From Hermatobates lingyangjiaoensis (lineage: Eukaryota; Arthropoda; Insecta; Hemiptera; Hermatobatidae), in NCBI GenBank assembly GCA_026182355.1, contig JAPFBL010001929.1, forward strand, positions 1,976,001-2,040,000: a DNA stretch of 64,000 bases, read 5' to 3'. Within the stretch, counting starts at the first letter, position 1, and every line of letters starts with the position of its first letter. Shown here in pieces: positions 1,430-63,304 of this stretch. The translations under genes and the position numbers were made by a program. The notes beneath the pieces were generated by a model. That model had not been told where the DNA came from and ran no database searches. It was given only the letters and a program-made list of their open reading frames with translations.

Positions 1430-1464
1430 GCTCTCTGATTAAATAAAATGAAAGGCCTCAGAGC
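1430..1464 (+). ncRNA. Hammerhead-like motif, family G (decayed core)
   Basis: Stem I GCTCT (1430-1434) pairs perfectly with AGAGC (1460-1464). Between them lie CTGATTA (CUGANGA with G8 changed to U), a weak 8-nt stem II region, GAA, the palindrome AGGCCT and C. The same stem I and cleavage site recur at 43150-43183 and 43236-43270, which keep CTGATGA. Probably an inactive copy. Confidence 0.5.
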
Positions 1465-1825
1465 ATTTATTTCTTTTGTTTTTCTTTTTCCATGTGGTTT
1501 AAACTTCATTGATTGCATCACGTCTTTCATTGTGATTTTTCTGCAAATTTATATAGTATGTATACAATTTTAAATATACATTAAACAAACAAACAAATAT
1601 ATATATGTTTGTAAATTGTGATAGTAATCCTTCCTGTGAGCATATATTATTGTAAATATTGCCATAATTTTGCAGACATTTCCTTATTGTTAAGATTTTG
1701 TCTTCTTGAATAACATTTTTGTTATTGAATCTAAACTAAATAACATACTTCCTACTTTCAACGTGTTTCAACTCTTTCCTAGTCTCCGTTGAAGGTCGTT
1801 TGAGGCAGTGGTGCAAGTGCTAAGC

Positions 1826-1860
1826 CAGGGGTTGGCAACCTGCGGCTCCGAGTGGCTTGG
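1826..1860 (+). mobile_element. hAT-like terminal fragment
   Basis: CAGGGGTTGGCAACCTGCGG resembles hAT-superfamily ends of the CAGGGGTTGGCAA type. No opposite end or 8-bp duplication was found, so this is probably a fragment. Confidence 0.35.
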
Positions 1861-2266
1861 AAAAATAAACAAGGCCGTCATTAATAATCCTTCTGCCTCT
1901 CTATGCCTTAATGATCAAATTCCAGGGTGTCCGAAATTTCTTAAGCTGTTCCTAGAATCACAAAGAATAAATTAAAAAATAAATTAAAAAAAAAAAAGTT
2001 TATTTCCTCTAAATTATTGGTTCTGGCCTTCTCTATTTCAGTTAACGGCTTTCAAGCATACCCGAAACCTTTCACCTTATCTCCTATATGCCTGCCTATC
2101 CTCTTTCGCAAGGGATCAGTTTCATACTTTTAGTTGTTTTCACTTGACCAACCCGTCAGTACCACTTCCTTGGGTATGTCTTGAATTCTCTTAATTGAAC
2201 TTTTATTTTTTATTATTTCACTCTAATTTTTGTAACTAATTAGATTTAATTTGTATTATAGTGTCT

Positions 2267-2303
2267 TCCTAATGATGAACACAAAGTGTTCGAAACGCAT
2301 TGA
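2267..2303 (+). ncRNA. Decayed hammerhead-like motif, family D
   Basis: CTAATGA (G5 changed to A), a stem II hairpin AACAC/GTGTT, then GAA and ACGCAT. This is a diverged relative of the intact copy at 8761-8797, which has CTGACGA and ACGCGT. Confidence 0.45.
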
Positions 2304-2499
2304 ATAAAACTTCATTTGTGTGGAGACTTTTGTTGGTTTATCCATTTTACCTCAGAAATTACTTTAAAAAAGTATTTATCTGCACTTTATTTGTGTTAGT
2401 TATTGTTTTAGTTCTAAATTGGAAGATCTTTATGTGATCTTCCCTGTGACTATGTGACCCCTGTGCTAAGTAGCTCATTTGTTATAATTGGCAGGAAGA

Positions 2500-2696
2500 G
2501 AGGAATGAGTAGGAGTTGGCGGGCAGTGGCTGACGTAATCTGTGGTGGGAGAAGGGAAAACGGGTACTTGATAAGAACGAATCCGATTCGACTACTTTGT
2601 ATGCGTATCGGATACTTTGGTATTGGAACAGGGTATTCGACTACATCGATACCTGGCTTTATTCGAAGTCTTCGTATTCGATTCGCCCATCTCTAG
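2500..2696. repeat. Low-complexity CGATTCG/ATCGATA-rich repeat
   Basis: A run of short variants of CGATTCGAATAC and ATCGGATAC ends in CGCCCATCTCTA. It resembles the interior and end of a non-autonomous DNA transposon, but the left terminus was not found. Confidence 0.3.
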
Positions 2697-3090
2697 TCCT
2701 CGTTAGTATCAGTTCCAGTGAGACTCTAATAGATTTATTTTCTCGTCTTTTTTTCTTGTTTCTACCAGTTTTCACCAACTTTTTTTTCTACTTTTCATTA
2801 TTGCACACTACATACTTTTCGAGAATGCTATCAAAGATATATAGAGATAAAGTGACTTCAAATCTGTAGATATTTTGTTATAAAAAACGAAAATATGTTT
2901 TTCAAAAGTTTTAAATTTACAACAATGCATATAAAGTGTCATTCCGTCAAAAGATCTAGAAATCACATTTGTCTATGATTACAATTACTTTATTTTTTAA
3001 AATTAAAAAAAAATAGCAGGTGAAACAAGTAGTAGGAAACGGACAAGTGGTGGGCGATGATAGGACGCAGGGTTGGCAAGTGCCTGTAGG

Positions 3091-5064: not shown

Positions 5065-5200
5065 ATATGAAATGGGAAAACAAGACTAAGATCTTTCAAC
5101 CGTAACAAGTGGTCTACGTCAGAGTCAAAAACCCGACTGACGAAGACCGCTTGTTACGGTTAAAAGATCTTAGTCTTGTTTCCCACTACATATTGTTTTG
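5065..5200. repeat. Foldback repeat with two family A hammerhead arms (mutated)
   Basis: The left arm (minus, 5084-5126) and right arm (plus, about 5135-5180) carry the family A core. The left has CTGACGT and the right has AAAA for GAAA, so both lost an invariant base. It sits immediately upstream of the (TA)n tract and the PLE ORF that follows. Confidence 0.65.
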
Positions 5201-5232
5201 ACTGTTATTTCACGTGTTTATGTGAAAATCTT

Positions 5233-5257
5233 TATATATATATATATATATATATAC
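5233..5257. repeat. (TA)n microsatellite
   Basis: A pure TA run at the 5' truncation point of the PLE copy that follows. Confidence 0.9.
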
Positions 5258-6356
5258 ATTCGCAAACTTCTTTATGTGCTATACTGAAAACCAGGTACTA
5301 CAAATAAATAAACCCACGTTGTATTGCCGCTATGTAGACGACTGCTTGGTTGTCATTAATTCTACAGAAGAGCTGCTGGCACTAAAAATTGCATTCCAAA
5401 AATTGTCTGGACTGAACTTCACTCATGAGGAAGGTGAAGAAGGTCAAATCAACTTCCTGGACGTGCACATCGATGGCCGTAAATCAAGTTATATCACATC
5501 TGTATATCAAAAGCCAACGGACCAAGGAATTTATATTAACGAAAAAAGTGAGTGCCCCGAACCCTACAAATTAGGAACAATTCATGCTCTAGTACTTAGG
5601 ACATACAAGACCTCTTCATCATGGCAGTTGTTTCATGAAAGAATCTCTCAACTAAGGCAAACATTTATCAATAACGGCTATAGCAACACCTCTTTTGATA
5701 AAGTAGTTAACGCCTACCTCAAAACCCGGTCCAACAATGCTAATCAAACAATCGACCGAAGTAGCACAGTCCATAAGGTGTACTATAAGAATCAATACAC
5801 AGAGGCGTATAAAGAAGACGAGAGAGTGTTGAAACAAATTATACGCAGGAATGTTAAATGTAATAACGAAAATGAACGTCTTCAAGTCCATATTTATTAT
5901 AAAAGTAGAACCACCGCTAACCTGATAATGAAAAATAGCCCTGATGCAGTCATCCCGGAGATGCAAAAGGCCAATGTCATATACGAATATAACTGCAATA
6001 TCGGAGATTGTGAGCTCCTAGACAATTCAAAATATATCGGTATGACATCGACCACACTCTCACGACGACTGACAATGCACTTGCAAGCAGGAGCCATCGC
6101 TAGACACACCTCCGAGGAACATGGAAGAAAACTCACTCGCCAGGACCTTGTTCAAAACACCATCATTTTAAAGAAAATTAATGATCCAGCCAGACTGCAA
6201 ATATATGAAGCCATGAAAATCATGAAGCACAACCCATTAATTAATCGTCAACACACGGGGGTTTCACGCACACTGCAGCTACTAGGTGACCAACCACCAG
6301 CTACTCGCCAAGCCGACACTCAGTCACCGCCCAGTATTCAGACCAGCAACACCTAA
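5258..6356 (+). mobile_element. Penelope-like element: RT C-terminal half and GIY-YIG endonuclease
   Basis: An open 360-residue frame, 5'-truncated at a (TA)n tract. Catalytic RT motif YVDD at residues 20-23, then INFLDVHI (59-66) and an RT thumb/linker region. C-terminal GIY-YIG endonuclease: VIYEY (235-239), YIG (254-256), Arg-Arg (264-265), a candidate metal-binding Glu (312) and the trailing Asn region HNPLIN (319-324). RT plus GIY-YIG in this order defines Penelope-like retroelements. The N-terminal module and RT fingers are missing, so it is not autonomous. No frameshift in 1.08 kb suggests a fairly young copy. Confidence 0.93.
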
Positions 6357-6753: not shown

Positions 6754-6818
<65 letters not shown>

Positions 6819-7735: not shown

Positions 7736-7740
7736 TTATT

Positions 7741-8178: not shown

Positions 8179-8411
8179 AATACTAACCTCTGTGGTAATG
8201 ATGAAATGCATGAATTTTATTGAATTTAACTGATTAGTTGTGCAATCTGTAATTGTGTGGTATTTACCCATACCACACAATTGTAAATTAAACTTTTTGT
8301 TTGTGAGTAAATAAAAAAACAATTAACAATGGTTTTCTTGACCCAATATTTATATGGTGTAATTTTTTTTTTTTGAGGATTGAGGTCTAATGATTTGAAA
8401 CTAGTCCTTTT

Positions 8412-8449
8412 GTCGACGTTTCGACATATATTTATGTCATCTTCAGGGC
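8412..8449 (-). ncRNA. Hammerhead ribozyme candidate, family C
   Basis: Minus strand: CTGAAGA, stem II GACAT/ATGTC with a 6-nt loop, GAA, palindromic stem III ACGT, H17 = C (a GUC cleavage triplet). All core bases fit CUGANGA...GAA. Stem I is short and imperfect (GCC with GAC). Confidence 0.65.
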
Positions 8450-8511
8450 TTTTAAATGGATTGTAAAAACAATTTACAATTGTAAATGGGTATACAAAGT
8501 TTCTATACAAA

Positions 8512-8900
8512 GGTTCTAAATTCATATGCACTAAAATGTATCTTACAAATTCAATATTACTGGGGTAATGGATAATACAAAATGTCCACATAAAAGAAGT
8601 TTTTTTTTATTCAAACTACGCTTTTCAAACACTTCGCGTTCATGGTCAGATAATCTTCTACAATACAAATAACAAATTAAAAGTTACATTGTGTTATAAT
8701 CGTTTATAATTCCGGTTTATTTTTCTAACTTTTCATTTGTAATTTGTATTATAGAAGTTTACCTGACGATGAACACGAAGTGTTTGAAACGCGTAGTTTG
8801 AATAAAAAAAACTTCTTTTATGTGGACATTTTGTATTATCCATTACCCCAGTAATATTGAATTTGTAAGATACATTTTAGTGCATATGAATTTAGAACCT
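8512..8900. repeat. Foldback repeat with family D hammerhead arms
   Basis: Left arm (8512-8680) and right arm (about 8735-8900) are inverted copies. Shared stretches include TTCATATGCACTAAAATGTA, CCCAGTAATATTGAATTTG and AAATGTCCACAT. The right arm carries the intact motif at 8761-8797; the left one is mutated (CTGACCA). Confidence 0.75.
8761..8797 (+). ncRNA. Hammerhead ribozyme candidate, family D
   Basis: AC, CTGACGA (8763-8769), stem II GAACAC/GTGTTT closed by GAA, then GAA (8786-8788), palindromic stem III ACGCGT, H17 = A, GT. Stem I AC/GT is extended beyond an internal loop by a perfect outer helix AGAAGTTT (8753-8760) with AAACTTCT (8809-8816). All conserved core positions are present. 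Confidence 0.7.
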
Positions 8901-9890: not shown

Positions 9891-9896
9891 AAATTG

Positions 9897-9932
9897 TCCA
9901 ACGTTTCAGTCGTCATAGACCATCTTCAGGGA
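9897..9932 (-). ncRNA. Hammerhead ribozyme candidate, family C
   Basis: Minus strand: stem I TCC, CTGAAGA, stem II GGTC/GACT (one G-U pair) with loop TATGAC, GAA, stem III palindrome ACGT, H17 = U, then GGA pairing with TCC. All invariant bases are present. Confidence 0.7.
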
Positions 9933-10448
9933 TATAAGATTTTATCTAATTAATAAATTAAATAAAGAACAAACACTATCAAAAAGTTATTATACATATT
10001 CTAAATACTAACTAGTACATCGCCATATTAAGGAATTAACAACATGGAGAGGACTCGGAGGTTACTCGGTCGTGGGGGTTACAGAGTCTTGGAGGTTCCA
10101 CAATCTCAGGTTTTCCAGTTAGATTCCTATAGTTACTTAAGTTCACTAAACCACTATGAGCTTGTCACTGAATCAGGGTTATTGCTTTGATGGTTTCCTG
10201 CGTGTAGCTTTAAAATTCTGATGAAACTCGTTGTCTGGTTGTTGAGGTTGGGTTTATACTCTCTTATACACAGGTCTTCTAAAATTTGCAGTCTACTATA
10301 GTATTTTTCCTGGTATAAAATTTCAATATTGTCGTTTAATTTTTCTCTGCTCAGTTTGAGGGTATGTGTGTTATGGAAATGATCTTTTGGTGCGCCGGCA
10401 GCAAGGTGCCTAGTTCATTGTTTAAATGAACTTCTGCTCCCAAAATAT

Positions 10449-10475
10449 ACTAATATATATATATATATATATATT
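10449..10475. repeat. (TA)n microsatellite
   Basis: A TA run in AT-rich flank. Nothing else was recognised between about 9940 and 11260. Confidence 0.85.
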
Positions 10476-12102: not shown

Positions 12103-12333
12103 TCTTATCCACCTCCCTGGAGAAGGATAGCCTTTAATTGATTTTCATTGACACGTAAAGAAAACATCTATTTTACGGCAAACTACCTCAATATATACTG
12201 ATTGATTGATATTTAAAACCCACGATTTCTCGATGCATATTTAATAGTAATACATCAAAGAAAATAAAACAAGGTTAACTTATTATTTTATAAGAAATCA
12301 ATGATCAAACCACAATAAGAAATGGGAAAACAA

Positions 12334-12376
12334 GACTAAGATCTTTCAACCGTAACAACCGTTCTTCGTCAGAGTC
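12334..12376 (-). ncRNA. Hammerhead ribozyme candidate, family A (stem II mutated)
   Basis: Minus strand: GACT, CTGACGA, a stem II region with AACGG/CGGTT (pairing weakened), GAA, AGATCT, T, AGTC. The core is intact. Confidence 0.6.
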
Positions 12377-12458
12377 AAAAACCCAACTGAGTTAAAATTA
12401 AAATACCTTAACTCTCCACAAAGGTAAGGGTTTGGTTCCAAAACTGAGTTGGGTTTTT

Positions 12459-12501
12459 GACTCTGACGAAGACCGCTTGTTACGGTTGAAAGATCTTAGT
12501 C
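12459..12501 (+). ncRNA. Hammerhead ribozyme candidate, family A (consensus copy)
   Basis: Stem I GACT (12459-12462) with AGTC (12498-12501); core CTGACGA (12463-12469); stem II ACCG/CGGT with a 7-nt loop; GAA (12488-12490); stem III palindrome AGATCT; H17 = U. Self-cleavage is predicted just before AGTC. The palindromic stem III would favour dimer formation or co-transcriptional tandem ribozymes, as in other PLE hammerheads. Confidence 0.75.
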
Positions 12502-12774
12502 TTGTTTTCCCATTTCTTATTGTGGTTTGATCATTGATTGTTATTTCACGTGTTTATGTGAAAGCTTTTTTATTTATAAGAAATATATGTTAATAGTACT
12601 GTTTACAGGTATATTGGTAAATATACTGAAAAAAATATAATTTTAAATATAAAAACTCATGTAATGGTTTAATATACCATAAATATTAAATGATACAAAA
12701 CATTAGTGATTTTGACACCTCACAATTACAACTTCATTATTAATATTCATTAATTTTCTTAATTCTGTCATAAA

Positions 12775-12925
12775 TCTGAGCATGGCGTCCCTCGGAGAGA
12801 AAGTTGATACGTCGGTCCCGATCCTGTACGATATCAGGTACTTGTTAAAATCCCTACTCTAAGTACATTTGAGTTAACCAACAATTTTAGGATTCAATAA
12901 TACAGAATCAACAGGTAATGTGGCT
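12775..12925 (+). repeat. 5'-truncated SINE
   Basis: Starts inside the family body (GTCCCTCGGAGAG) and continues with CCTGTACGATATCAGGTACT and the ACATTTGAGTTA segment. The tRNA head is missing. Confidence 0.75.
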
Positions 12926-15867: not shown

Positions 15868-16070
15868 AGTTATATATATATATATATATATATGAAGATT
15901 TCACATAAATATGTGAAATAACAATGAATGATCAAACCACAATATGAAGTGGGAAAACAAGACTAAGATCTTTCAACCGTAATAAGCAGTCTTTGTCAGA
16001 GTCTGACGAAGACCGCTTGTTACGATTGAAAGATCTTAGTCTTGTTTTCCCATTTCATATTGTGGTTTGA

Positions 16071-19094: not shown

Positions 19095-22000
19095 GTAAGT
19101 CTTTCTTTTAAATAGTTAATCCTTTTTATTATCTGTTCAAAGCTATCAGCATAAAAATCAAACTTTCAAGTTGTATTAAGTTTGTTTTTAAAAGTAAAAC
19201 GAATACATACTAAATTAAAGGTACTCATAAATATTCCAATCTAACAATGCTTCAAAATAACTACCTTATACTTCAAGTTACTTTAATTTCGGAACTGAAA
19301 TAATTTAGTGTTTCATGAGCTATTTGATGCACAGTACATGATTATCTAGATGTACTATATTCTTTGAACAGGTTTTCTGTTGGTACTAAACAATACCAAA
19401 TTGTTTAAAACTAAATACAATTGGTTTAAACCCAATACTTTCGATGTGATATAATATTTAATGATTGTTATTATTAGTGAATTAATTTCGGTTTGGGCTT
19501 TCCTCAGTTGTATTTGATAACCACGTGGCCAGGCTGTTCTGTGCCATTGATTAATGTTTGTAAAAACGTAGTTCAACACGGATGTTCCTTTTATGTACTA
19601 AAATTGAATTAACTTGTCACTATGAATTATAAATTAATTTATTTAACTTAAATACTTCTGTTATTTACATAGAGGTGATTGTTAAACTAAATTAATTTAC
19701 AATTGTTGAAGTAAATACGGTTTATTTGATTGCCCATAAATCAGACTGAAAAATTAATCAGATGGTAACTGTTTTTGAATAATTAGCATGAACTTTAATT
19801 TTATTCTTGAGTAAAAGAAATGATTGGCTAAAAAAAAGCTGTTATTTCAATATTAAGCAATAAGAACAAAAGAGTGATTGTAAACAACAGTTGATTTAAA
19901 GGTACAAACTTTCCGCGTATGTAACAATAAAACAAAAGCATCATAATAACAATATCATAACAAATAAAGCATCAGAAAAGATTAAATATATACTCGGATA
20001 ATCGAAAGGTTGTTGATAAAGTCTCTAATTGACATGGGCTTAGTGATTTCACAATGACAGTAGTAGGTCGGTGACCTTGAACTGCTGATTACACAGGTGC
20101 ATTACTTTGCGCGGGAAGATTTGTTGGCCAACATTTTGGAACATTGCCGTGTCATGCTTTTCACCACAAGCATGCATACCTGAGAAAGAACACTACACCT
20201 TAAAACTGGCTCTCTTGCCACTAAAATTGTGTTGATGTAGAGTTATTGAATATGATTTTTATGTGTGGGTAAATACCACTTAGTTACAAATCATTGTTAA
20301 AATGATAGATGACTATAACAAAGTAGTGTTTTTCGTACCTATAACCAAATAATTCTCATGTGACATAAATAACCATTAGCTCCCTTTCCAAGGTAAAACT
20401 AATTTCCTTTTGTTTCATTTTTTGAAATAGATGTGTACTTAACAACTCTGATTGTAAAATAACCTTTTGTATGTATGTGTTGTTCTCAATAATTTAGTTC
20501 TCTATGTAGGTTGTAGATTGTTTTGGTAAATTTATTATAGTTGTTACCCTAATTTTAGCCCTGAAGATGATGTGCAAATATATCGGAACGTTGGTCTAGG
20601 AAGGAGTTTATTTTCTTGTATATGACTTAGCCACAAAAACAACACCTACCCCATACAATAGAATAGAATAGGTCAAGAACAATTTTTTGAGAATATATAA
20701 ATATAGCATAGATAGAGGCATAGACCGTAAGTAGTTTCTTCCTCTAAAACAAGCCTTGAAAATGTCAAAACAATGTTTGGCGAATCGTCGGCGTGTAAAC
20801 AGGAATGTAATTTCTTTAGACCAAAACTCCTCAAAATACCAATGTTTGAACTTTAAAAGTCAGTGGTCGAGAAGTTATATCAATAAGTATAAACATAAAT
20901 ATAAATAATATAAAATGGTTATGTTTTCTTATCTCAACAACTTATATTGAACACTATTTTTCTTTATCGAGGTTTGGTCCAGTGTCACAAAATAAAACAC
21001 CTTTAAGTCAACGTTTCGTCTATATTTGTAGACATCTTCAGGTCTATATCAATACGGAAATTAATTAAAATAACATGCAAAATTTTGAGTTACATTGTTT
21101 ATATGAATATACATTGGTATTTTTTTGGTATTGATATATTGTAATAGAAAAATTACAAAAAATAATACCAAGGTAATAATGTATATTCATCCAAATAATG
21201 TAAATCAAATTATTCATGTTATTGTAGTTAATTTCTATATTGATTTAGTCCTCAAGATGTCTACAAATATAGATGAAACGTTGGCTTAAAGGTGTTTTAT
21301 TTTGTGACACTGGACCAAACCTCGATAAAGAAAAATGTATTTAATATAAATATATAATATAAATAAAAAAAATATTTATTTATTTGTTAATTCTAGGAGT
21401 GTTATTTTGTATAATAACAAGATTTTTTTTGTTTTGATTTCATAACTGTTTTGAAAAGAACGGCTTTACTTTAAATTATAAGTACCAGAAAAACTTATGT
21501 AACAAGACGGAAGGAAAATGAAACACTTCACAACTACTGATGCAGATATCGAAGAGTGATGGGTAATCATGAGAAACCCTACAAAATCGTGATATTATTA
21601 AAAAAGACGTGAAAGACTGCATTGAAACCTAAGAGTAGATAGATTTGTAGAAACTAGACTCCAATATTGAAAAACCAAGCAGATGAAGGAAAAAAAGTAG
21701 CATGAAAGATTGTAGAGAGCACTATGTGTGGTGAATAAGAAAGATATTGAATCAAGGATATCAAGTAGACATTTCGTGTTAAATAGAGAGCAGGGCAAGA
21801 TCACGAAAAGCCGTTATACTCGTACACTGCAAGGCCATGGGCCCAAAGACATTACTATAACCGAAACTTTAGGAATGTTTAAACTTAAACTAACTGTATA
21901 CAGAACAATCATAACGAACAGACAAACAACACCCTTAAAGCCATCTTAAACAATTAAAACTGGGCAAAAGATAAACTTGACAAAATTTAAAAAGTATCAA

Positions 22001-25000: not shown

Positions 25001-26112
25001 ACACGTGGTTAAGTGCCCTGTGTTAAGTTTGTATGTGTATATAAACTGACCGTTAGAACGTTGAAACATAAAAATTAAAACATAAAGCCCTGTAACAAAC
25101 CAGCCAGTTCGTTAGTGTTCCAATGTTTTAAAATGATCTATTACAATTTTTTTATGCTATATAAAAACTGTTTCTTTTACAGGTTACTTCAGCGTACTTT
25201 ATAAAATGTTAATGAGAAAAATTTGTTATTTAATTGTTATTTGTTATATTCTTATTTTTTATTTGTTATTTTAAAAAAAATATTTGTATTCTGACATGAC
25301 ATTGTAAAAACCCAACTGAGTCAGTTGGGTTTTTGACTCTGACGAAGACGGCTTGTTACGGTTGGAAGATCTTAGTCTTGTTTTCCCATTTCATATTGTG
25401 GTTTGACCATAAATATATATAACAGCTGAACAGAAATGTATCCTTTGTTTTAAAAGTATTCACTGAAATAGTATAAAAGAAGGTATTCAAAGAATTTTGA
25501 GGAAATAAGCTCACAGGTGACTGACTACACATACTGCCAAGGTTACCCTTGATCAGTAGGCTGTTTCTTTTCCTTTTCGTTTTTTTCAGGCAATTCCATT
25601 CAGTTCTTTTTTTTTCTGTTAACAGTTTCCAAAACCAATGACATAACAAGATTTATAAATTATTTTAAAAATGAATTACTGTAATTGACTATACTAATAA
25701 CCGTTTCAAGAAAATTGACGTACAAAGGGAATTAAAATCATCTGCCTTTAACTTAGAACAATCAGTCAAATTGTTACTCTCATTTCATTAGGTGTTTGTG
25801 CTTTGATAATTCTGACATCCTGTTTCCATTTTTTTCATTTTTACATATAGTGTTCATGACAATTCTTTAAAAAAAACCCTCTCATTACTTCAACTGTTTA
25901 TTTCCTTTCATTGTTTTACAAATTATCATTTCCAGATAAAACATTAAAGGAAAAATTATTTTTGTCTTTTAAATTTGTCTCCCTTTAAGAATCATAATTC
26001 TTAATTGTGATAAAATATACTACAACCGATGGCAATATTTTTAATATAATTTTGAAATATAACAAAGGTGGTGTAAAAAAGAAATATAAAAAAGTTTGAT
26101 AATTTCTTTGTT

Positions 26113-40818: not shown

Positions 40819-43800
40819 ATATTATATATATATATATTTAACAGATTCAATAATATATCGACCGTTTGATAGAATAGGGATTTCGGCCAATTTTCTAGGA
40901 TAAAAAATCAGACTCTCGTTGCCAACGTTTTGGTTTATTTAAAACCTTTTTCATAGGTCTGCAAACAAAGGATAATAAGAAATCACATATCAACATCAAA
41001 CATATATACAATTGACGTTTTCATAACATCTGTCCAAGTGACATCGTAGAAATTAAGTAATTCGATCTTATGATCATTAAATCATTTGTCTGGTGGGATA
41101 TAGCTTGTAGTCTAATGCTTACGTGCCATCCTAAGTGAAGCAGTATTTCTGAAACTAGAATGGTAATAAGACAAAAGACTAATTATTTTAAATACCAAGA
41201 CTGAGCTACACTAAGATTTGATCCTTTGTTATATTCTTACTAAAGCTCTCTTCAGTAATTAAGTCAGTTAAGAATTCATGTGTTCAGCCATTTACTAAAG
41301 CGATATTGATCTATCATGTTCACTGGCAATGAAATATTTCTCAATCATACAATATTAAAAATTTACTAGGCATAAAAAATATTTGAAATTTTGGATATAT
41401 ATATTTATATTAACGAAATAAATAGAATTTTTTTTTTCAGAGAAAGGTAGCTTTCTTGCGTTGGACCTTGGAGGGACCCACTTCAGAGTGCTACTAGTAA
41501 AGCTTGATGATCAAAAGTTTAGCATGGAGTCTCAGAAGTACCCGGTGCCTCAAGAAATCATGACTGGCACTGGCGAACAGGTAATCTTTGCTGTTTATTG
41601 CATATATTAGCAAAGCCCGAATGTGAAATGGTTGATATTAAATGGATTATTGCAGATCAGTCATCACCAAACTATGGGCTTATGAATATTTATGTCAACC
41701 TCCAAACCATAATAGGAAATGAGAAATAATACTAAGATCTTTCAACCGAAACAAGCGGTCTTCGTCAGTGTCAAATCACAACTGTGATGAAGACCATTTG
41801 TTTCGGTTGAAAGATCTTGGTCTTTTTTCTCATTTCTTATTGTGGTTTGGACGTTGGTTGTTATTTCACGTGCTTATGTGAAATCTTGTTATATTAAAAG
41901 TAGAAGAATACTTTTCTTCTCAGAATTTGGTCAGGGTTAATTATTTGAAATCGCTTTTTTGTCAACGTTGGAAAAAAGGTGATTTCAAAATAGTATTAAT
42001 TAGTAATTGTGGTCAAGAAAACAATACCTATATATATATTTCGTTTTATTGTTTACTGTTTACCTGATGATGGCCAATGTGGCCGAAAGCTTGTTTCCAT
42101 TTAGTTCTTTAACCTAGTTTGTGTTAGTGTAGTGTCAAATATAGTTTGTTTCATTAGGTCTCTTGAAGATTGTTTTCCTATTCTTGTCATGGAATTAGGT
42201 AGATTAATTTTTGAGCTACCAGTGAATTATAAGAAAATAATAAGGCAAATAGAACATCTTTCTAAAAAGATTATTAATGCTGAAGCCGCTGTGCTTTTTA
42301 ACAACACTTGTTTAAAAGAAGACTTGCTGCAGTATACACGAATATATATATATATATAAGTAGAAGAATACTTTTCTTCTCAGAATTTGGTCAGGGTTAA
42401 TTATTTGATATATATATATATATATATATATATAACTTTAAATTACACAAAGCACGACACAGAAAAGAGAATACAAAGAAAACTTACAGAATTCAATATT
42501 TCGAACTGTTGTTCGTCATCAGGAGAGTAGACTAGAAGAGAGGACGAAGTGAGAGAGATCTCCCCACGTCGAAGAACGGACCGCGAATCATATATATATA
42601 TACGATTTCAAAATTCAAGAAGAGTAACACACAGAGTAAATAAACACACTTACAAACTCAAATTCTCGGGTAATCCACCTTCAGGAGAAAAGAGATACGG
42701 AGCTTGGTCTCCCTTTCTCATTTCTGCTCACTATATATATAAAGTGAACTATGTATGTATATTCACTTGATAAACGGAAAGACGATCCAAACTGGACACA
42801 ATAACGGTTCAAAATTGAAGGTAGGTAACACACAAAGTAAAGAAACACACTTACAAACTCAAATTTTCGGACAATCCGTCTTCAGGAGAAAAGAGAAAGG
42901 CAGGTCTCTTTCTCTTGGTCCCCCTTTCTCTTTTCTCCTCAAGGCGCATTGTCCGAAAATTTGAGTTTGTAAGTGTGTTTCTTTACTTTGTGTGCTATCT
43001 ATCTTCAATTTTGAACTGTTATTGTGTCTTGTTTGGATCGTCTTTCCGTTCATCAAGTGAATATATATATGAAGAAAAATCACAGTTAAACACCTGATGC
43101 AATCAGTGAAGTCTAAACCGCAAAGAAAAAGAGAAACAAAAGAAATAATGCTCTGAGGCCTATCAATTATGTCATCAGACAGCAAACAAAGTCAGAAAAA
43201 AGGAAAAAAGTAAGTCCTTTTTTCTTACTTTGCTTGCTCTCTGATGACATAAAGTGGAATGACTCAGAGCATTTATTTCTTTTGTTTGCCTTGTGGTTTA
43301 GACTTCATATACTCGTATATATATAAAATGTGCATATATATAAATCTGAAATTAACATTATTTTGTCTGCTTGTTTATTATTCATAATTAAAATAATTAA
43401 TGCCTTTATTTGCAGTTGTTCGATCACATTGCTGACTGTCTTGCAAAATTTACCAAAATGCACAACCTTAAGCAGTCGCTTCCTTTGGGCTTTACATTTT
43501 CATTCCCTCTTGAACAGAAAGGACTGCAGAAAGGTATTCTACAGAGGTGGACTAAGGGTTTCTCTTGTTCTGGAGTTGTTGGAGAAGATGTTGTGGCACT
43601 ATTAAACAAATCAATCAAAAAAAGAAAGGTTAGAATATCTACAATGCATAGTATTAGATCAAGTACTCATTGTCTAAATCAGGGGTTCTCAGCCTTCCTA
43701 GCCCCTTTCACCTTTCTTGTCATTTCCCACAATGCCATTCTACCCCCCCCCCCCCTCCTTCGATCCAAGGTAGTATATACACATTTTCAACTTTACATTG

Positions 43801-46800: not shown

Positions 46801-49800
46801 AGTTTGGGTCTAATAACAGCAGTCTAAAATTAGTTCCTTGATTGTGATTCCATGAAAATAAATATTTTGAAAATAAATAGGACTTTCTAGAATTTTGTAG
46901 TTAACGGATTATAATTCGCCTTTGCGAATAATTGTAAAATTATAAATTTTACAACCGCACCGGGTGGCAAAAATAGTTGCTACGTCATTGATACGATACC
47001 ATGATAAAGCATATCAAGTTGATGTTTTTTCTTAGAGCTCTTTGGCACATAACAAAGGGAATCAACTGAATCCTCTTTGAATGAAGATCATAAAACGATA
47101 TGACTGTGCTTCGAGGATGCGGGACTCCACGAATTATATCAACAAGATACTAGAAGTCTACAAAAACTGGTGTTCACTCGGTGAAATAGGTTGCCAAGGA
47201 AAACAAGAGATTTCAACTGAGCTGGTTGTTGCTTTGCAGTTGTCATATGTAGTTGGACTGCTCAGCCGTCACAGTTTTTAACTAGCTAGGCCTTTTAAGT
47301 AAAATTTCTGGGTGAAGGTTCATTAGGGTTTGTAGGATGAATATTAAAAATAAAGAAATGAAAAAAGGAAAAGGGATTAAAAAAAAGAGCAGAAGTGAAA
47401 GAATCACAGTATAGAGTTAAAAAAGATAAAGGAGAAGAAAGTGAGAACATCCAATCCCAGGCCTGAAATGCAGGCCTGAGGCTCTCGTGTACCGGCCCAA
47501 GGGTCTAACATCAGCCAAGAAAGTCGATCATTAGGCTTCATATTAGCTCACCTACCAGTGTGAAAACAGGTCACTCCATTTAGTAACTTAAGTCGTTGCT
47601 GCCCCTCAGTTGGGAAAGAAAAGGTTTTGAAAAGACAGACGTTAACCGAAAAAAAAAGTTCGGAAGCGACTGATGGGAAAAAATATTCCCAAAGCAGTGT
47701 ACGATTGAGAGGACTCAGCTCCTATGGTTGCCAACCGAAGAAGGGTGAAAGAAGCGCACCCACAGGGCCATTCTTAGCTCTTTCCATGTGGGAAAACCAC
47801 CCGGCTGGTGAAACTCACCAGGACACCACACTAATCTGTCTGTCAGTGTAATGACTTATTATTTACTGGTCCTTTACTATTACCAAATTATTTCCTAAAC
47901 AGTAAGTGACTCTCCGTTGTCCATCTCCATGAACTGGATATAGTAGATAAACACCTGGTATATGAATTTATGGCCTGTCAATGTAGTGTATGAATCTAGC
48001 TGTTGTACTTAGATAGATTAGTTTTATAACTTACAATGTTAAATCAATCTCTCATACTGAATATTTTGATTATGGGATTTAAATAAAATACCTAGATGGA
48101 GTAGGCTCGTTGGGACTTGGGTCCGCACTACCACCCGAGTGCTCTTAAACTGTCGGTACTGCAGTGACAAGAGTCAAACCCGTGAGTAACTTCTTTGAGT
48201 CGTCGGTATTGATGAAATATTCACAGTAGCCGTGATTCTAGACTCAGTAATGTTAGACTCACACTGTTGGTCTCCAACCGTCGCTTCACAAGTGCGCTTG
48301 GTGTCCCTATCTCAACTCTCCTGATGACGGTTCAACCGAAAATTAGAGACAGTAAGTCTGTTTGTTTCTTAGTTCTGTGTTTGTGATTCATCGTGACACG
48401 TTTGTTGTCCTTTTGGATCGTTTTCCTGTTTACAATATATATATTGGGTACTTCGACTACAATTTCATGTATTTAGAAGTAATTTTGTTTTAGGGTTACT
48501 CCTTTAGCTTTTTGAATTTGTTGCGGAAATCGGGTGGACACACATTGGTGGCACTCCGTAACTATATTTAATCTTTATGACGACAGAAAGTCACGTGGTC
48601 ATTGCCGTATTAGTCGTCTTTGGGGGTTTGTACTAGTTGGGAAAGATTTTGGGCAAGTGGGTTTGAATGAGTTAAGATTTTACTGTGGAATCATTTGTAG
48701 CGGTCTTACGTAATATATTAAAGCAAAGTATGTGCCAATTAAAAAGTCCTAATTTTTGTGCCATGAAATCAAGAATACAAAAGTTTGTTAGTGTAGTCGT
48801 TATATAGAGAGCAATAATCTAAAATCACTTTTATTAAATTTGTGATCTATAGCAAATGTTCAACTATGCTGATACAAATGTTATTCTAATTGTTTCTGTA
48901 GGAACTGGATCAAACGCCTGTTACGTGGAAAAGGCTGAAAATGTCATTGGATTCGATGGAGATAAGAACAAACCTGAAGTACTGATCAACACGGAATGGG
49001 GAGCTTTCGGTGATAACGGTGAAGTTAATTTCCTTCAGACAGTCTATGATGTTGAAGTGGATAACAATTCTCTCAACAGAGGCAAACAAATGTTAGTATG
49101 ATATATCTTGATGTTCCTCAAGAATTCTAATATTTATAATTGTCTCAAAATATATTTTACATAGTTAGTGTTGTCCATATAATTCACATATTATCATTCT
49201 GTTTGCTGGCAGAATCAAAAATTAAGTTCCGAAGACATAAGTATCACATCGATGAGTGTTATGTTCTGTAGCTAACCTTTTAAGTAACCTCTTTACTGGT
49301 ACATTACTGTTTACTACATGCATATATCAAGAAACTGTAATTTAGTTTATATCATTCCTGGGAGGTCACTTAAACTCTTCAAGATGTGAATTTAACTTCA
49401 AAGATTTTTTTTTTTTTGAATAATTTGGTTGCACTTGCCATTATCTGGGTCCTAGGGATCATTGAAACTCTCCAAGAGAGATGTAAAACCTCTCTTTTTG
49501 AGTAGGTAAACAGGCATACATATATCATTATTGTCTGACCCTTGGGGGACACTGAAACTCTCCAAGAGAAAAATGTTTTACACCGTGCAGCATTCATCTA
49601 GGAGGAAGTCTATGTTCTAGCCATACCTTATTAAAGAAATATAAAGCTGTTTATTTTAATCAAGGTTTCTAACACCCTATTTATATTAAAGGATCCAAAT
49701 TTAATAAAACATCGTTTTGAAATAATGTCAGTATTCTGTAAACATTCCAAAACTGAAATGTTTTCAGAAATTCTCAAGTATATATTCATCTTCATGCAAC

Positions 49801-50640: not shown

Positions 50641-53600
50641 AGGTCGTAAATGCAGAAGCTGCTGCACATTTTAATATTATTTGTTTACAAGAAGATCTGC
50701 TGCCCCCTTATACTAATATATATATATATATATATATAAAGATTTCACATAAACACGTGAAATAACAATCAATGATCAAACCACAATATGAAATGGGAAA
50801 ACAAGACTAAGATCTTTCAACCGTAACAAGCTGTCATAGTCAAAAACCCAATTGACTTCTGGGTTCTTTCAGTCGGGTTTTTGACTCTGATGAAGACCGC
50901 TTGTTACGGTTGAAAGATCTTAGTCTTCTTTTCCCATTTCATATTGTGGTTTGATCATTGATATATATATATATTTGTAAAATTTGGAAGCAGTCCTTCT
51001 TTTAAGCATATTTCGTTGAACAGCTGACCGTATTTCGCTGATGTAATTTTCTTCACTAGTTTTTCAAGGTTTCTGAATACCTTCTTTTTTCCTTCATCCA
51101 AACGTTGGAGAATGTTAATTAAGTTATAACCGACATGTTTCGACTGGCTTCCAGTCATCTTCAGGGTGATTAATTAAACAAAGAGAAAAATTATTAGTCT
51201 TTGGAGTTGGTATTAAAACACATTATATAGTAGAAGTTTGAAGTAGCTGCTCTTGGGCCTGATTCACAAGAGCTACTGACTGAGGTGGGGTGGGGGTACT
51301 GACAGTTAACGGTTTTTTCATCCAATCAGGCGCGTATAGTTTAAGCACTCTCTCGCTACTACCCGTCTGAATATTTATTGTAGGTTTATTCTGTTTAATT
51401 ATTATTGCTTCTGCGATTTGCAGCCGATTGAAGTTGTTTTCTTTTCTAATTATTTTAGTTCCACTCACGAGTAGGTCTCTAGTTATTTTGGTATTATGCT
51501 TGTCCTCTGAATGTTTCTTGGGACCGCCTATAGAAAGGTGCATGGTAAGTCTTCTCGACAGTGATGTAGTTGTCATCCCAATGTATGAATCGTTGCAAGG
51601 CTCACGGTCCCCGATTTGACAGGTGTATTCATACACGAGATTAGACTCCTTCAGTTGAGAATCTTTAACCTTATTGCTATTTCTCATCACTAGGCTGCTT
51701 ATGGTGGGGCTCCGATAATAGGTTATTAAGGCGACCTTATCCTCGGGTGAGGTGCATTTTATATTCTTCTTAATTATATCCTTGAGTACGCGTTCGTCTA
51801 TTTTGTGGTCTTCCGAATACTGATTTTCGTACTAAAGGTTATGTGTTATGTGATATATATATATATATTAACTTTAGCACATAGGACAGAACACAGAAAG
51901 ACACTACAGAACTCACTTCGATATTTCGACATCCGTCGAGTAAAGATTTATATTTTGAATTATCTTTTACATTTTTGGTTTTTACCAGAATTATTATACT
52001 GGGAATTTTATGGCTTCTTAGTATTTAATAAGATCATTTTCCTTCCCCTTTGTCAAATAACATATATACGAATTTTCTTTTAATGAGTGTTATCATTTAC
52101 CTGCACAATATTATTCCTCTTACATCTCTTATAAGTCAATAATATATTTTCATTTTTCCATTAGAAACATCAATTTTATCTCAGTGGATTCGCTCAAAAA
52201 ATTTCTAAGTCAATGTAAACAATGTAAAAAAATACAAAAAATTCGACAAGTATAGCAGGTGATCTCTTAGTCTAGGATAAACAAAGAGTTTTTATATCGT
52301 TATTGCTCTTTTCCGTAATTGAAACTTCATGATTTTTTTTTATGAATTGCTAATTTTTTGTTCCATTTTTGGTCAAATTTTCATAATTTTTTAACGAGCC
52401 GTTTAGCGTCAAAAAAACATTTTCTGAAAACACAAATCGTACTCTAAAGACCCTTTAGCGAATGTAATTTTAGAAAAAAATATCTCAACTCATTGTCCAT
52501 ATAATGTTCTATTTATAGGCATAGTTTCATTCTTGTCCGTCAAACAGTATGGCTTGTATCGCTCTCACAAGGTTTGAGATTGATTTATAAGTCAAAATTT
52601 GTACATTTTATTGAAAAAAAAATATTTCCTGTTGATATAAAATTTTGAATATATTTTTCGTTTGTTCCATTTGTAACCTCAAAGATAATGTCAAAATCTC
52701 AAAACTCTAGGGTTATTAGTTTAGGAGAAATAAATGTTTTAAAAAAAACGGTTTTTGGCAAAAAAAGTGACTTTCCCATCATGCATAATTCTTCCCAAAC
52801 AATAGGGATCTTCGTCTAAATGGGGCCCATTTTTGTGTAAAATATCAACTTGATTCATCAAAGATTCTGGACCGTAGCGTGGTAACAAGCAATGCTAACA
52901 CACGCACCCACCCACCCACCCACCCACACACACACAGACATCATCATAAAAACTTCATAAAACGACTTCTGGGACCTCAAAACATGTAATTCCGTCAAAA
53001 TCTCGAGATCGAATTCTTTCACGATCACTATACTTTACTTATAGTAAAGTAATAATAATTAACGGTGGATGTTAAGGCCAGGAGGAGAGCGAGCCTCAAG
53101 GAGGCATATGAATGCCTCTTCGGAAGCTCTATGGGTGACATGGAAATTAGACTCGGGGATTTGTTTGAGGATTTGTACCCTGAAACATTCATTGAAACGG
53201 AGGTCATGGGAATTAGCATGGATAGCTATGGGTAAGTCACTGCGCTGAAAAACAGACGCCCTGTGATTGTTCATACGCAGGCTCAGCTTGATTGAAGCCA
53301 AGCCAACGTAAAAAGCATCACATCGAGTACACTCCAAACGGTAAACGCAGTTACAGGATGTGCAAGATGTATCAGAAGGAACAGGATAGGAGTTGTTACT
53401 GAGAGGGGAAGTAAAGTAAGGACTGGATAGGGGACAGGTTTGGCAGTTATGGCGTTCACATCGCTGCATCCCTCTGCTAGCGCAGGGGCTGTTGGAAATA
53501 TGGGAGAAAATGGATTTAAGGTTGGAAGGTCTACGGTAAGAAAAAGTAGGGGGCTGACTGAAAATAGGAGAAGTAGACGTGTATATATATATATATATAT

Positions 53601-53838
53601 ATAGTTTTTTTACTTTTTCTTACTGTACTCCTTTGTTTCCCGAAACATCCCTTTCTGGACATTAGTCCTTTCCTGCGCTTTCACCCTTTTAAAATACCAC
53701 TCTTCCCCCCCACTCTTCTCAACTCCTCACCAGATGTTTTCTGCATCTAGTGTTCAGTTGGGTTTTTGACTCTGACGAAGACCGCTTGTTACGGTTGAAA
53801 GATTTTAGTCTTGTTTTCCCATTTCTTATTGTGGTTTG

Positions 53839-53891
<53 letters not shown>

Positions 53892-54015
53892 ATTTCACAT
53901 AAACACGTGAAATAACAATCAATGATCAAACCACAATAAGAAATGGGAAAACAAGACTAAGATCTTTCAACCGTAACAAGCGGTCTTCGTCAGAGTCAAA
54001 AACCCCACTTATTGT

Positions 54016-59600: not shown

Positions 59601-59629
59601 TTTTCTTTTTTTATCGAAAAGAATTTTTT

Positions 59630-59685: not shown

Positions 59686-60044
59686 AGTTCGACCCGTTTA
59701 TCTTCGTTAGGAGAGAAAGTAATATAATGGCCATTGCAGATGTATATTTCGATCTCTGTACGACTTCAATTTTTCTCCCTTCTATATTGTCATTTCTGCT
59801 GAAGACTGACTGTTGGTGAAATTATTGAGAGAATCGTGAGTATTTGTCTTCTTTCTGTGTTACTGACTTTTGAAGTTTTTGTTATATATACATAATTAAC
59901 ACTGGAAAAACATGTAGAAAGTTTTCAACAAATACTTCCTTTAATATTTGAACATTGGTCGTCATCAGGGAGGGATGTTCATGATTTGAGAGTCAAAGTT
60001 TACTTATAAATAATGTATAGAATAAACAATATTTATCAGGAATC

Positions 60045-60125
60045 AGTCAGTTTTGCAGGTTGAAATCAAACTTTCAAAACAGTTGTTTTGGTTTTATTTA
60101 AAACCTTTTTCGAAGGCTTACAATA
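60045..60125 (-). mobile_element. Family B unit
   Basis: Minus strand: CTTCGAAAAAGG, TTTTAAATAAAACC, AAAACAACTG and the AACCTGCAAAACTGACTGA end. Confidence 0.5.
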
Positions 60126-60769
60126 CAGATGAACAGTTGTTTATAGTATAGCGTTCTTGTTAATACAGAATATGTCAAACAATTCTATTCCTGAACTTTT
60201 TCATATCTGTAAGTTTTCTCACTTTTTAGCTCAGAATATTTGTATTTCTAGCATTCTGATGTAATTTTCCATAAGTTGATACGTATCTATATATTGTTGG
60301 TTGTTATATGATGTCTTATACTTCTTTTGTTTTGTAAGCATATAAAAAAGTATTTAATAAATAAAACCAGAACGTATGCATTGAACGTTTCATTTGAATC
60401 TGAAAAACTGACTAATTTCGGATACAAATATTTTTCATTCTATTCCATATGAAACTGTTTCTTACAATTATAACCTCATGATTAATGAAGTAGTCTTTAT
60501 GTATATATTGTTGAAGTACTTAACGGGCTCCCTTAACGTATGCCTCATTATTTTTGTTTAGATTTCTGCAGTTATTAATTTTCTTATATTTATTTATTAA
60601 AGGATATAAATTCCTATTTTAGAATTAATATAATTAATTTAACAATCATTGTTACTGGCAGAGTTGTTTCAATTATTATTTACTTCATAGATTTACAAAA
60701 ATTAATCTGTTGTCTACTTAAGAGGATTACTTACTTTTTACTACTTAGTTCGAGCTTCCAAAGCTCTCC

Positions 60770-60935
60770 ACTTCGATGGCTCGGTGTCTCCGGTATAGGT
60801 CGGCAGCTATTTGCCAGAATTTGGTGTTGGTCAGGATTCTTTTCATAATGGCCTCATCTCCTAGGTTCTTCTTTAGCACTTCTCGCTCGCGCAGGAAATG
60901 CGAGCACTGGAGAAGAATATGTTCTAGACTTAACT
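60770..60935 (-). pseudogene. LINE ORF2 C-terminal fragment
   Basis: Minus strand reads SLEHILLQCSHFLREREVL then IMKRILTNTKFWQIAADLYR. The His-x4-Cys pattern (EHILLQC) is typical of the C-terminal end of jockey/R1/CR1-like LINE ORF2. Not obviously the same element as at 18060-18592. Confidence 0.6.
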
Positions 60936-60939
60936 ACTT

Positions 60940-62840
60940 AAGAGAAGTAATTTACATAAATGAAGGGTTAAACTAATAAAGGATTAGTTCGTAGAATTGA
61001 TTTATAAATAACCGATATTTTTAAATGTTTGAAACTATTGGGTTAAATGAATTATTTAAGATTGATTATAAATTTGGTTGACTTGATACTTAAGAATTAT
61101 TAGTTTGTAATAATATGCAATTGATGAGGCATGATTTTTAAGAGTTGATTAAACTGCATTACCTTTTTTTCTACCTTGGTTAGAAGAATGTAACATAGTT
61201 ATAAATCTTATCAACTTAATTCAATCTTTATTTAAACAGAAAAATATACTGTTATCTGTTGTCAAACAAAAAATATATAGTAAATACGATTTTAATTTCT
61301 ATACAAAATACTGTTAACCGCTTTTACTTTGCATGAAGAGATTAATAAACCGAATATTACCATGTATGCTGGTGTTGGAGTCATTTGAACAGGTTTCGTG
61401 CTTTGCCCTTTTTCAAGTACTGATCTAGATCAATGAGGGCCTTTTCTAGTTTTTCTGATCAGGTTTTACTGAAATATCCATACAGAGGGAAACTAGAATA
61501 CTTCAGGCCTACTTAGGCATTTGGAGGAGGGGATTGGAGTTGGAGTTTTGCTTAGAAAACTATTTAAGAAAAATAGTTTTTCCCAAAATGGTCATTTTCA
61601 CTTTTACAGAATAACTGGACACAGATCTTAAGTTGAGGTTATAATAAAAATAAACTAACATCTGTATTTGATTAATTCCATAGGTTTTTCAATTCATAGT
61701 TACTTTCTATGAATAACAGTAGCTATATGTTATTCTATGAATACACAGTAGCCCTTATGATAGTTTCATATGGGGTCCAAAAACCTTTTGTATAGATTCC
61801 TCAAGACATACATAGTGCAGCTGAATCATCCTGATTTGACCAATCCTTCAGTATATTTGACAGGTTATATTCTCAAAATCAGGATATTGAGGAAAGTGGA
61901 AAGAATAGTATCTCACCAGCACAATTTTTTCTTCTCAAGGTTCTTCTTAGCTATCTATGGATCCTAGACCTTAGCGCCTTCAGGCCTAATAAATGCTTCA
62001 ACACTAAAGCCGATAGCTGAAATGTCGTATACTATTGACTTATAATTGTATAAAATATTTATAATTCATTTTAGTATAGAAAAATTAAACATTCTTGTTT
62101 TTGAAATATTCCCCAAAAAAAGTGATAAATCCCTTAATTTATTGTTTTGGATGTAAAAAATAAAAATTTAAAGGAATTGTACTACTTATAGTACTCAGCT
62201 CCTCGGGGTCGCTTTTTGAGAATAATTTACAAAAAATTAAATACATTATATGGGTGATATAATTAGATCATCAACGACTAATATAATCTGTAATTATTTT
62301 ATCATCATTATGATATATCATATTATATTAGTAATCCATACTAGTGTATACATTCTGCCATCCATGTAAACAACCTCAGGACACAGCCTTAAACACATGC
62401 ATTTTTTTACTAACAGTTAATAGTAGTAAATTTAATTTATTTATATAAGATCAGCCTATTTCTAGCTATGTTACCAATTATATTAGTTTGTTGAGGAACC
62501 ATTGTCTTATTTTTATTCCTTATAATATGAAGTTTAAGTACTACTTAAAGGAAATTGCTATTGAAAATTTAGATGTATAATAGGGATCTGAATTTTAGAA
62601 CAGGGGAGAAAGGAGAATTCAAAATTAGATGTGAAGTGAAATAAATGATAATATTTATTATACAAATAAATTATTATAATCAAAATTTATAACCAAGTTT
62701 ATCTTGCTGCTAACATAATTTTGAAGCACATTATATGTTGCAATTTGTATTAAATATGTATGAAGTTCAATACATTAATATAATTGTTACTAATAAACAT
62801 AAGTAATGTGTTTGTAAAAGACTTAGTCGTGTGTTTTATA
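60940..62840. other. No recognised feature
   Basis: AT-rich flank. Short frames such as 61770-61967 have no recognisable product. Confidence 0.4.
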
Positions 62841-63225
62841 TATATATATATAGGTGTGTTCTCTAATCGGGATTCGGTCAATTTTCTAGGATAAAAATCA
62901 AACTCTCGTTGCCAACGTTTCGGTTTTATTTAAAAGCTTTTTCATAGGCCTACAAACAAAGGATAATAAGAAATCACAATAGAACATATACACAATATGA
63001 AAAAGGATTGTTACAATTTATGAATATTACAAGCAGAAGTATTTCAGAGATACATAAAACAATATTACTTAAGAAGTAAGAAATTTTTAACTAAGAAAAT
63101 GAAATTTACATTATTATTTATCCTAGAAAATTGACCGAATCCCGATTAGATGTAACCTATTCTATCAGACGGTTGATATATTATTGAACCTGCTCTGTAT
63201 ATATATATATATATATAATTAAAGT
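62840..63225. mobile_element. Family B unit with inverted partial copy
   Basis: Left part (62850-62960, minus) has CCTATGAAAAAGC, TTTTAAATAAAACC, GAAACGTTGGC. Right part (63090-63200, plus) repeats TTAACTAAGAAAATGAAATT and CCTAGAAAATTGACCGAATC in the opposite sense. TA runs at both ends. Confidence 0.65.
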
Positions 63226-63257
63226 TACAGCTAGAGAACACAAGAAAAAGGACGAAC

Positions 63258-63304
63258 ACTCACGAATCTCGATTATTTCGGCGTCTTGCCGTCTTCAGGA
63301 GAGT
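63258..63304 (-). ncRNA. Hammerhead ribozyme candidate with extended stem III, 3' of a PLE ORF
   Basis: Minus strand: ACTCTC, CTGAAGA, GGC/GCC hairpin, GAA, stem III hairpin AATC/GATT (with two unpaired bases), H17 = C, GTGAGT. Stem I has five of six pairs. Stem III is not a palindrome here, so it could act as a monomer. It lies about 290 nt downstream of the PLE frame on the same strand. Confidence 0.65.

Follow-up and report, generated by a model that had tools for sequence, protein, structure and literature searches.

Candidate minimal hammerhead ribozymes of Penelope-like elements in a 64-kb locus of Hermatobates lingyangjiaoensis

A stretch of 64,000 nucleotides from the hemipteran insect Hermatobates lingyangjiaoensis (contig JAPFBL010001929.1, positions 1,976,001 to 2,040,000; hereafter the window) contains numerous short motifs that resemble hammerhead ribozymes and lie among remnants of Penelope-like elements (PLEs). 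Minimal type I hammerheads of PLEs have reportedly been described by Cervera and de la Pena in 2014 and by Lunse, Weinberg and Breaker in 2017. The locus raises the question of whether its motifs belong to this kind and, if so, how many lineages they represent and what state they are in. Judging from the sequence, the motifs are very likely minimal type I hammerhead ribozymes of several PLE lineages, with many copies damaged, truncated or folded back. They share with the published minimal PLE hammerheads a reduced stem III and dispersed copies in or beside PLE sequence; the published motifs form dimers, as is proposed here, and reach thousands of copies per animal genome (PMC7761336). In one coral, 16 families together account for over 6000 type I motifs of either minimal or canonical form (PMC7229834). 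The density, variety and palindromic stem III that a first-pass annotation of this DNA had presented as the notable part are already on record (PMC7229834, PMC3088659, PMC6466107). The kind itself has been described: published accounts cover dimeric cleavage, stem III palindromes, the presence of many families in one genome and inverted pseudo-long terminal repeats (pLTRs) arranged head to head. The interest of the locus lies in a uniform extra base, the foldback setting and one aberrant family, designated T; a change of function by any of them is not established.

The motifs are far more frequent than chance predicts. CTGANGA followed by GAAA matched 29 times in the window, in part with overlap, compared with 3.6 expected. 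Exact sites chosen without any demand on the stems numbered 27, compared with 618 over 150 second-order Markov windows (4.1 each); these 27 satisfy the core C3 U4 G5 A6 N7 G8 A9 plus G12 A13 A14, for which about 4 are expected. A strict scan, which demanded exact CTGANGA and GAAA, 3 or more pairs in each of stems I and II and 0-1 base between the core and stem II, gave 13 matches, while 100 first-order Markov windows gave a mean of 0.13 and a maximum of 1. A perfect stem III palindrome was present in 9 of the 13 (null mean 0.02). A relaxed scan, in which stem I was required, at most one core mismatch and G-U pairs were allowed, stem III had to pair with itself and the threshold was 8, gave 18 matches; the null means were 0.03 (order 1) and 0.1 (order 3) over 30 windows each, and the reversed window gave 0. 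Both scans required the A15.1-U16.1 pair and an H17 other than G, so that all matches have them, and the nulls were run under the identical rule. Copies 12463, 50887, 26276, 53993, 51164, 9929, 48321, 27751 and 42885 combine the exact core with a palindromic stem III and 3 bp or more in stem I; copy 27076, family T and the copies listed as damaged depart from the core (Table 1). Taken together, the motifs are real, lie where the first-pass annotation had placed them and occur well above chance.

The same annotation had argued that pairing is preserved between families despite base changes and that this reflects selection for the fold. We counted pairs on 15 lineages and dealt out the 3' strands among lineages as a shuffle; the stems were set by hand because MAFFT, given 17 rows, put their 3' half in the wrong place. 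Stem I kept 44 of 60 pairs (shuffled mean 31.9, p 0.0001), and the first three pairs of stem II were kept in 42 of 45 cases (shuffled mean 30.7; equalled in 0 of 20000 shuffles). With only the seven most distinct lineages, the values were p 0.00035 for stem I and 0.0017 for stem II. Because the rows are partly related and partly picked by their stems, these p values are only a guide. For stem II, the result agrees with a test on the 27 sites chosen without regard to stems: at a one-base offset from the core, 20 of the 27 pair over 3 bp or more of stem II, compared with 5.7% in the null, while zero offset gives 1 of 27 (null 7.0%) and a two-base offset 2 of 27 (null 4.7%). Copy 56240 makes a 3-bp stem II in each of the three registers and is counted in all of them, and 12372 does so only at the two-base offset. 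That selection has maintained a hammerhead-type fold in PLE sequence is therefore well supported by the between-lineage covariation and by the unselected stem II test, and the earlier argument appears sound.

The offset is itself uniform among the paired sites. In classical hammerheads, CUGANGA runs straight into stem II, and the formula in the first-pass annotation likewise omitted a base here. We noticed this base because a scan allowing no insertion yielded a single weak match (56240). One unpaired base separates A9 from stem II in 20 of the 20 paired sites; it is A in nine, T in seven, C in four and G in none, and stem II then opens with G in all 20, compared with 7 of 35 in the null. Known hammerhead alignments have at most one or two bases inserted between CUGAnGA and its stems (PMC10085705), and the plus-strand RNA of chrysanthemum chlorotic mottle viroid (CChMVd) resembles the window motifs in that an unpaired base follows A9 (PMC3705267). 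Deleting the extra base from the viroid motif increased cleavage (PMC11014351). The viroid differs in that its extra base is an A in one motif, whereas the window motifs use A, U or C. Stem III of the CChMVd motif is, moreover, said to be closed by a loop, in contrast to the palindrome found here. Among viral contigs searched with a general pattern allowing 0-2 inserted bases, hammerhead-like loci show the offset-0 form. One viral locus, L033 (minus strand, 2077-2111), is hammerhead-like with one extra base, a 7-bp stem II and, by eye, a closed stem III. The base near A9, present in every paired site, is one likely cause of Rfam models missing such motifs, and it supplies a ready search rule for similar ones. 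It is quite unlikely that the PLE hammerheads here form a structural class of their own, in which an unpaired base must stand between A9 and G10.1 and the amplified family T has a rewired rather than a dead core.

Families were assigned by hand, and 42 copies were listed. Family A has 14 copies and family C nine (51164, 9929, 27076, 20561, 21041/21251, 8446 and 4726/4780); family D comprises 8763 and 56240, families E and E' 48321, 27751, 42885 and 16562, family F 63298, 36151, 42522 and 59799, family G 1435 and 43241, family H 42064, and family T, a relative in scaffold, six copies. Families E, E' and F were taken as one superfamily because their cores follow CTCTC or a near variant and precede GTRAGT; GTAAGT or GTGAGT lies 6-9 bases past the predicted cut in six of the seven E/E'/F copies read, and 36151 has GTGAAT. 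By our judgement, the copies make up perhaps six or seven superfamilies, within which at least ten sublineages can be told apart. As a number of sequence types, the earlier count of eight families is fair; it does not describe working ribozymes, and E, E' and the type at 63258 look related. Lineages A, C (51164 and 9929), E and E' have an intact core, a palindrome and 3 bp or more in both stems I and II; the F copy 63298 keeps core and stems with a non-palindromic stem III. Several of the individual assignments had to be changed. The family proposed at 27041 has AAA for GAA, and hence lacks G12, in both copies read (27040-27080, minus strand; within 27249-27311, plus strand), and none of the three copies read of family G (1435, 43241 and a minus-strand copy near 43180) keeps core, A15.1 and stem III together. 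At 63258, the proposed stem I ACTCTC/GTGAGT pairs instead as TCTC/GAGA, with the non-palindromic stem III ATAAT. When stem III of the copy at 8761 is read, by eye, as ACGCGT, its contiguous stem I is 2 bp long. As a separate observation, the GTAAGT or GTGAGT after 48321, 27751, 42885, 63298, 42522 and 59799 resembles a 5' splice site.

Table 1. Coordinates of motif copies, foldback repeats and PLE remnants in the window
Feature	Position	Strand	Remarks
Family A	12459..12501	+	copy 12463; intact core; stem I GACT/AGTC, stem II GACCG/CGGTT, stem III AGATCT
Family A	50883..50925	+	copy 50887; intact
Family A	53768..53810	+	stem III AGATTT
Family A	53955..53997	-	copy 53993; intact
Family A	26238..26280	-	copy 26276; intact; downstream of same-strand GIY-YIG open reading frame
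Family A	12334..12376	-	damaged stem II
Family A	15961..16003	-	core G8 altered
Family A	15999..16041	+	stems I and II damaged
Family A	25335..25377	+	GAA changed to GGA
Family A	30127..30169	+	stem III AGATGT; PLE remnant 27872-29294 lies upstream
Family A	41730..41772	-	in foldback; stem I damaged
Family A	41780..41822	+	core C3 altered
Family A	5084..5126	-	core A9 altered
Family A	5133..5175	+	arm without stem I 5' strand (foldback junction); GAA changed to AAA
Family C	51128..51168	-	copy 51164; intact; ACC/GGT, stem III ACATGT
Family C	9896..9933	-	copy 9929; intact core; TCC/GGA, ACGT
Family C-like	27040..27080	-	copy 27076; G12 changed to A
Family C	20557..20596	+	GAA changed to GGA
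Family C	21247..21286	+	CTG changed to CTC
Family C	21006..21045	-	stem I imperfect
Family C	8411..8450	-	stem I imperfect
Family D	8759..8799	+	stem III ACGCGT; contiguous stem I 2 bp (read by eye)
Family E	48317..48349	+	copy 48321; TCTC/GAGA, stem III AATT
Family E	27723..27755	-	copy 27751; TCTC/GAGA, AATT
Family E'	42857..42889	-	copy 42885; CTC/GAG, AATT
Family F	63267..63302	-	copy 63298; TCTC/GAGA, ATAAT (non-palindrome)
Family F	42491..42526	-	copy 42522; stem III ATAT; weak stem I
Family F	36119..36155	-	copy 36151; stem I lost
Family F	59795..59830	+	copy 59799; damaged stem II
Family G	1430..1464	+	copy 1435; GCTCT/AGAGC, AGGCCT; damaged core
Family G	43236..43270	+	copy 43241; stem III and position 15.1 altered
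Family H	42060..42096	+	stem III AGCT; stem I weak
Family T foldback	27323..27620		similar scaffold; core altered to UAUGAAAAA
Foldback, family A	12296..12539		head-to-head motifs
Foldback, family C	20942..21349		
Foldback, family D	8511..8900		
Foldback, family E'	42754..43069		
PLE reverse transcriptase/endonuclease remnant	5229..6353	+	protein matches
Second PLE remnant	27872..29294	+	RVT_1 match; 3' part resembles GIY-YIG open reading frame 26452-26799
GIY-YIG remnant	26452..26799	-	domain match
PLE remnant	51223..51864	-	
PLE remnant	10157..10453	-	

The self-complementary stem III of the strict matches is 4 or 6 bases long where it is fully palindromic. The palindrome had been called near-universal; it is complete in 9 of the 13 strict matches, and three of the four family F copies are non-palindromic (ATAAT, ATGAT and ATTAT; the fourth is ATAT). 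A palindromic stem III leaves no hairpin loop if it is fully paired, so that a monomer closes at most about the A-U pair, while two copies form a full helix; in the nested dimer fold, the stem I strands exchange partners as well. Palindromic stem III and loop III have been remarked on before (PMC3088659), and double hammerheads in eukaryotes are stated to need palindromes and tandem copies (PMC6466107). A parallel is offered by the newt and axolotl satellite hammerheads, which have a weak palindromic helix III: the helix III of an axolotl motif has a palindromic cap, and axolotl motifs cleave better as dimeric constructs (PMC7229834). The amphibian motifs make loop-loop contacts and lie in tandem repeats, whereas the window copies are dispersed or in foldbacks. 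In the model that we propose, each motif would be placed near the 5' end of a pLTR, and the RNA of an intact copy would fold stems I and II. Stem I and the palindromic stem III may then pair with a second copy, either in the next pLTR of a tandem transcript or in another transcript, and the dimer would be cut between the unpaired H17 and the stem I 3' strand, possibly with the help of an element protein. Such cutting would trim tandem transcripts to unit-length PLE RNA.

The elements themselves are represented by remnants at five places, and no full-length PLE is present in the 64-kb window. The remnant at 5229-6353 has 119 protein matches, the best with an E-value of 5.8e-120; the matches carry RVT_1 (PF00078), and one named match, a protein of Eriocheir sinensis, is 39% identical, nearly all the others being from unnamed sources. 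One homologue, P0107, has PF00078 plus the GIY-YIG domain PF01541. In the window, reverse transcriptase and GIY-YIG sequences occur on remnants only (RVT_1 at 28307-28885, GIY-YIG at 26452-26799), and we take the remnants to be PLEs from the pairing of these two domains. Their link to the motifs is visible for families A and C. Copy 51164 lies about 55 bp past the end of the PLE open reading frame 51223-51831 on the same strand, and 9929 lies about 225 bp downstream of the remnant 10157-10453. A PLE 3' flank is present in four copies, and family A comes next on the same strand after three of them (26346-26448, 29413-29514 and 53601-53703), but not after 31509-31610; the spacing is about 65 bp in two cases and about 610 bp in the third. 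Adjoining the PLE remnants is an inverted pair of 639 bp (29369-30006 and 31017-31655) with 99.5% identity, which indicates a young duplication. Several family A copies (e.g., 15870, 26140 and 53860) terminate with a hairpin resembling TTTCACGTG..ATGTGAAA and then (TA)n, which may be a target site or tail of the element.

Half of the listed copies (21 of 42) lie inside self-palindromes. There are 19 of these repeats, covering 5.9% of the window, and a motif copy is present in 13; arms of the same palindrome cannot be counted as independent. In 18 of the 21 foldback copies, the 5' side of the motif points toward the centre (head to head). The exceptions are 53756-54009, whose two arms are tail to tail, and a single arm of the asymmetric repeat 15870-16109, in which two diverging motifs start four bases apart. 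At the five remaining family A centres, the arms join at or just 5' of the motif, and one stem I strand is missing in the arm 5133-5175. Similar structures are known from bdelloid rotifer Penelope elements with inverted pLTRs, where inverted repeats that meet head to head at a palindromic junction were interpreted as products of self-priming (PMC3846280). The word "ribozyme" occurs 0 times in the main text of that paper, while the family A junctions here lie at or just 5' of the hammerhead. By analogy with other PLEs, the foldback copies were most likely born by self-priming during reverse transcription, and their sense motif, able to pair with its own antisense arm, is probably silent. We considered and rejected a variant in which a complementary DNA folded like a hammerhead primes its own foldback: this would leave a single motif in the loop, and the five head-to-head family A centres have a motif in both arms.

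Several results weigh against the ribozyme interpretation. The one to which we gave most weight comes from Rfam. No hammerhead was found at the gathering cut-off or with E up to 10, either in the whole window or in two 81-base pieces of it, and at low threshold, the search detects a viral motif but neither of the window motifs tried. Four hammerhead-like loci on viral contigs were likewise unmatched at the gathering cut-off; L027, the one checked at low threshold, matched Hammerhead_1 with 20.2 bits, below the cut-off of 34, and the remaining three were judged hammerhead-like by eye. Because the cut-off also misses these loci, the empty Rfam result does not refute the hammerhead reading. The first-pass annotation had named an absence of model matches as grounds for rejecting it; this is formally what was obtained, and it says little for the same reason. 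The low-threshold miss fits the extra base and the absent stem III loop. Predicted energies are also unfavourable: among six lineages, the dimeric hammerhead fold beats two monomer folds in just one and is never the lowest-energy dimer, and for family E, it is far weaker (-3.6 versus -15.8 kcal/mol), so that the dimer model cannot rest on nearest-neighbour energies alone. An internal loop in an extended outer stem I looks suggestive in A, C51 and D87 but falls short of significance overall (permutation p of 0.052 over 11 flanks). For families D, E, F, G and H, no PLE remnant was mapped on the same strand in the 1 kb upstream. Finally, the hammerhead of an anole PLE did not cut without protein, and its mutants still insert (PMC11167929); the same paper mentions earlier work in which PLE hammerheads cleaved themselves at 3-25 mM Mg.

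The anole result suggests an alternative, in which the fold is kept for protein binding or for starting reverse transcription on PLE RNA, with the ribozyme core left over as a relic. The damaged cores with kept stems in copy 27076, which lacks G12, and in family T would agree with it. However, CTGANGA and GAA are kept in families A, C, E and F while the bases of the stems vary, and a binding site would have no obvious need of G8, A9, G12 and an unpaired H17; we regard this alternative as unlikely. Another source of type I hammerheads is the non-LTR retrozymes of animals. These are short repeats in tandem that carry canonical type I hammerheads and give small RNA circles; they have low GC and are known from several invertebrate phyla (PMC7229834). 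Such an origin is highly improbable here: Tandem Repeats Finder, with a longest period of 500, found no array with a period above 32, and motif-bearing tandem repeats of 150-450 bp are absent from the window. The copies are instead dispersed or in inverted pairs, and their palindromic stem III has no hairpin loop. The chance that the motifs are accidents of repeated AT-rich DNA, or parts of ordinary foldback DNA transposons without a ribozyme, is close to negligible. Many copies do repeat a few sources, which makes copy number weak proof, and Rfam is silent, but the Markov nulls of orders 1, 2 and 3, the reversed window and the covariation between lineages all contradict it. If the motifs are, as we favour, minimal PLE hammerheads, the locus offers a dense natural series of related ones in which stem bases vary while the architecture stays constant, useful for asking why PLEs retain a ribozyme apparently poor at cutting alone.

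Family T stands apart. Its six copies have the consensus stem I TGCC/GGCA, stem II GGTTTT/AAAACC, GAA and ACGT; all four stem I pairs occur only in 27548, stem II is changed in some copies, GAA is kept in five of the six, and ACGT is kept in all six. The core position reads UAUGAAAAA in five copies and UAUGAAGAA in one, and one copy begins about 280 bp past the PLE remnant 5229-6353 on the same strand. On one reading, U3 and A8 would replace C3 and G8, with an inserted A. Natural hammerheads include U3-A8 pairs, and one with insertions near C3 cut very little under standard conditions (PMC3088659). The simpler reading is that family T is a dead motif; if active, it would broaden the known tolerance of the core.

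Searches of other collections gave no relatives of the window motifs. A PLE protein alignment against the viral contigs produced 113 pattern matches and no relative, and the family A pattern matched nothing there. The general pattern with 0-2 inserted bases found 26 loci in a prokaryote collection and 15 viral loci, and none of either looked like a PLE motif. The 26 were rejected as hammerheads and treated as chance: stem I is below 3 bp in 22 of them, and the other four are one repeated sequence. Several of the 15 viral loci resemble hammerheads by eye, with a closed stem III and offset 0, or offset 1 in L033. The five best microRNA-like Rfam rows by E-value (41693, 42859, 27421, 43169 and 4693) lie on self-inverted repeats and were set aside as foldback hairpins.

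The remainder of the window contains no tRNA and three open reading frames of at least 150 amino acids. A hexokinase exon lies on the plus strand at 54810-55133 (Pfam Hexokinase_2 and PDB hexokinase matches), and a likely second one, from a motif search only, lies near 57825 on the same strand; some of the repeats thus lie in or beside the introns of that gene. Copies of a dispersed repeat, at most about 300 bp long, lie on both strands at 564-868, 12770-12887, 15321-15571, 17390-17634 and 32862-32987, with further copies at 33338-33490, 37143-37453, 37949-38245 and 38542-38853. One copy has, by eye, a GGTTCAATACC box, and the repeat is perhaps a tRNA-derived short interspersed nuclear element. 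The segments 45248-45671 and 46452-46870 are 74% identical and form a direct repeat about 440 bp long.

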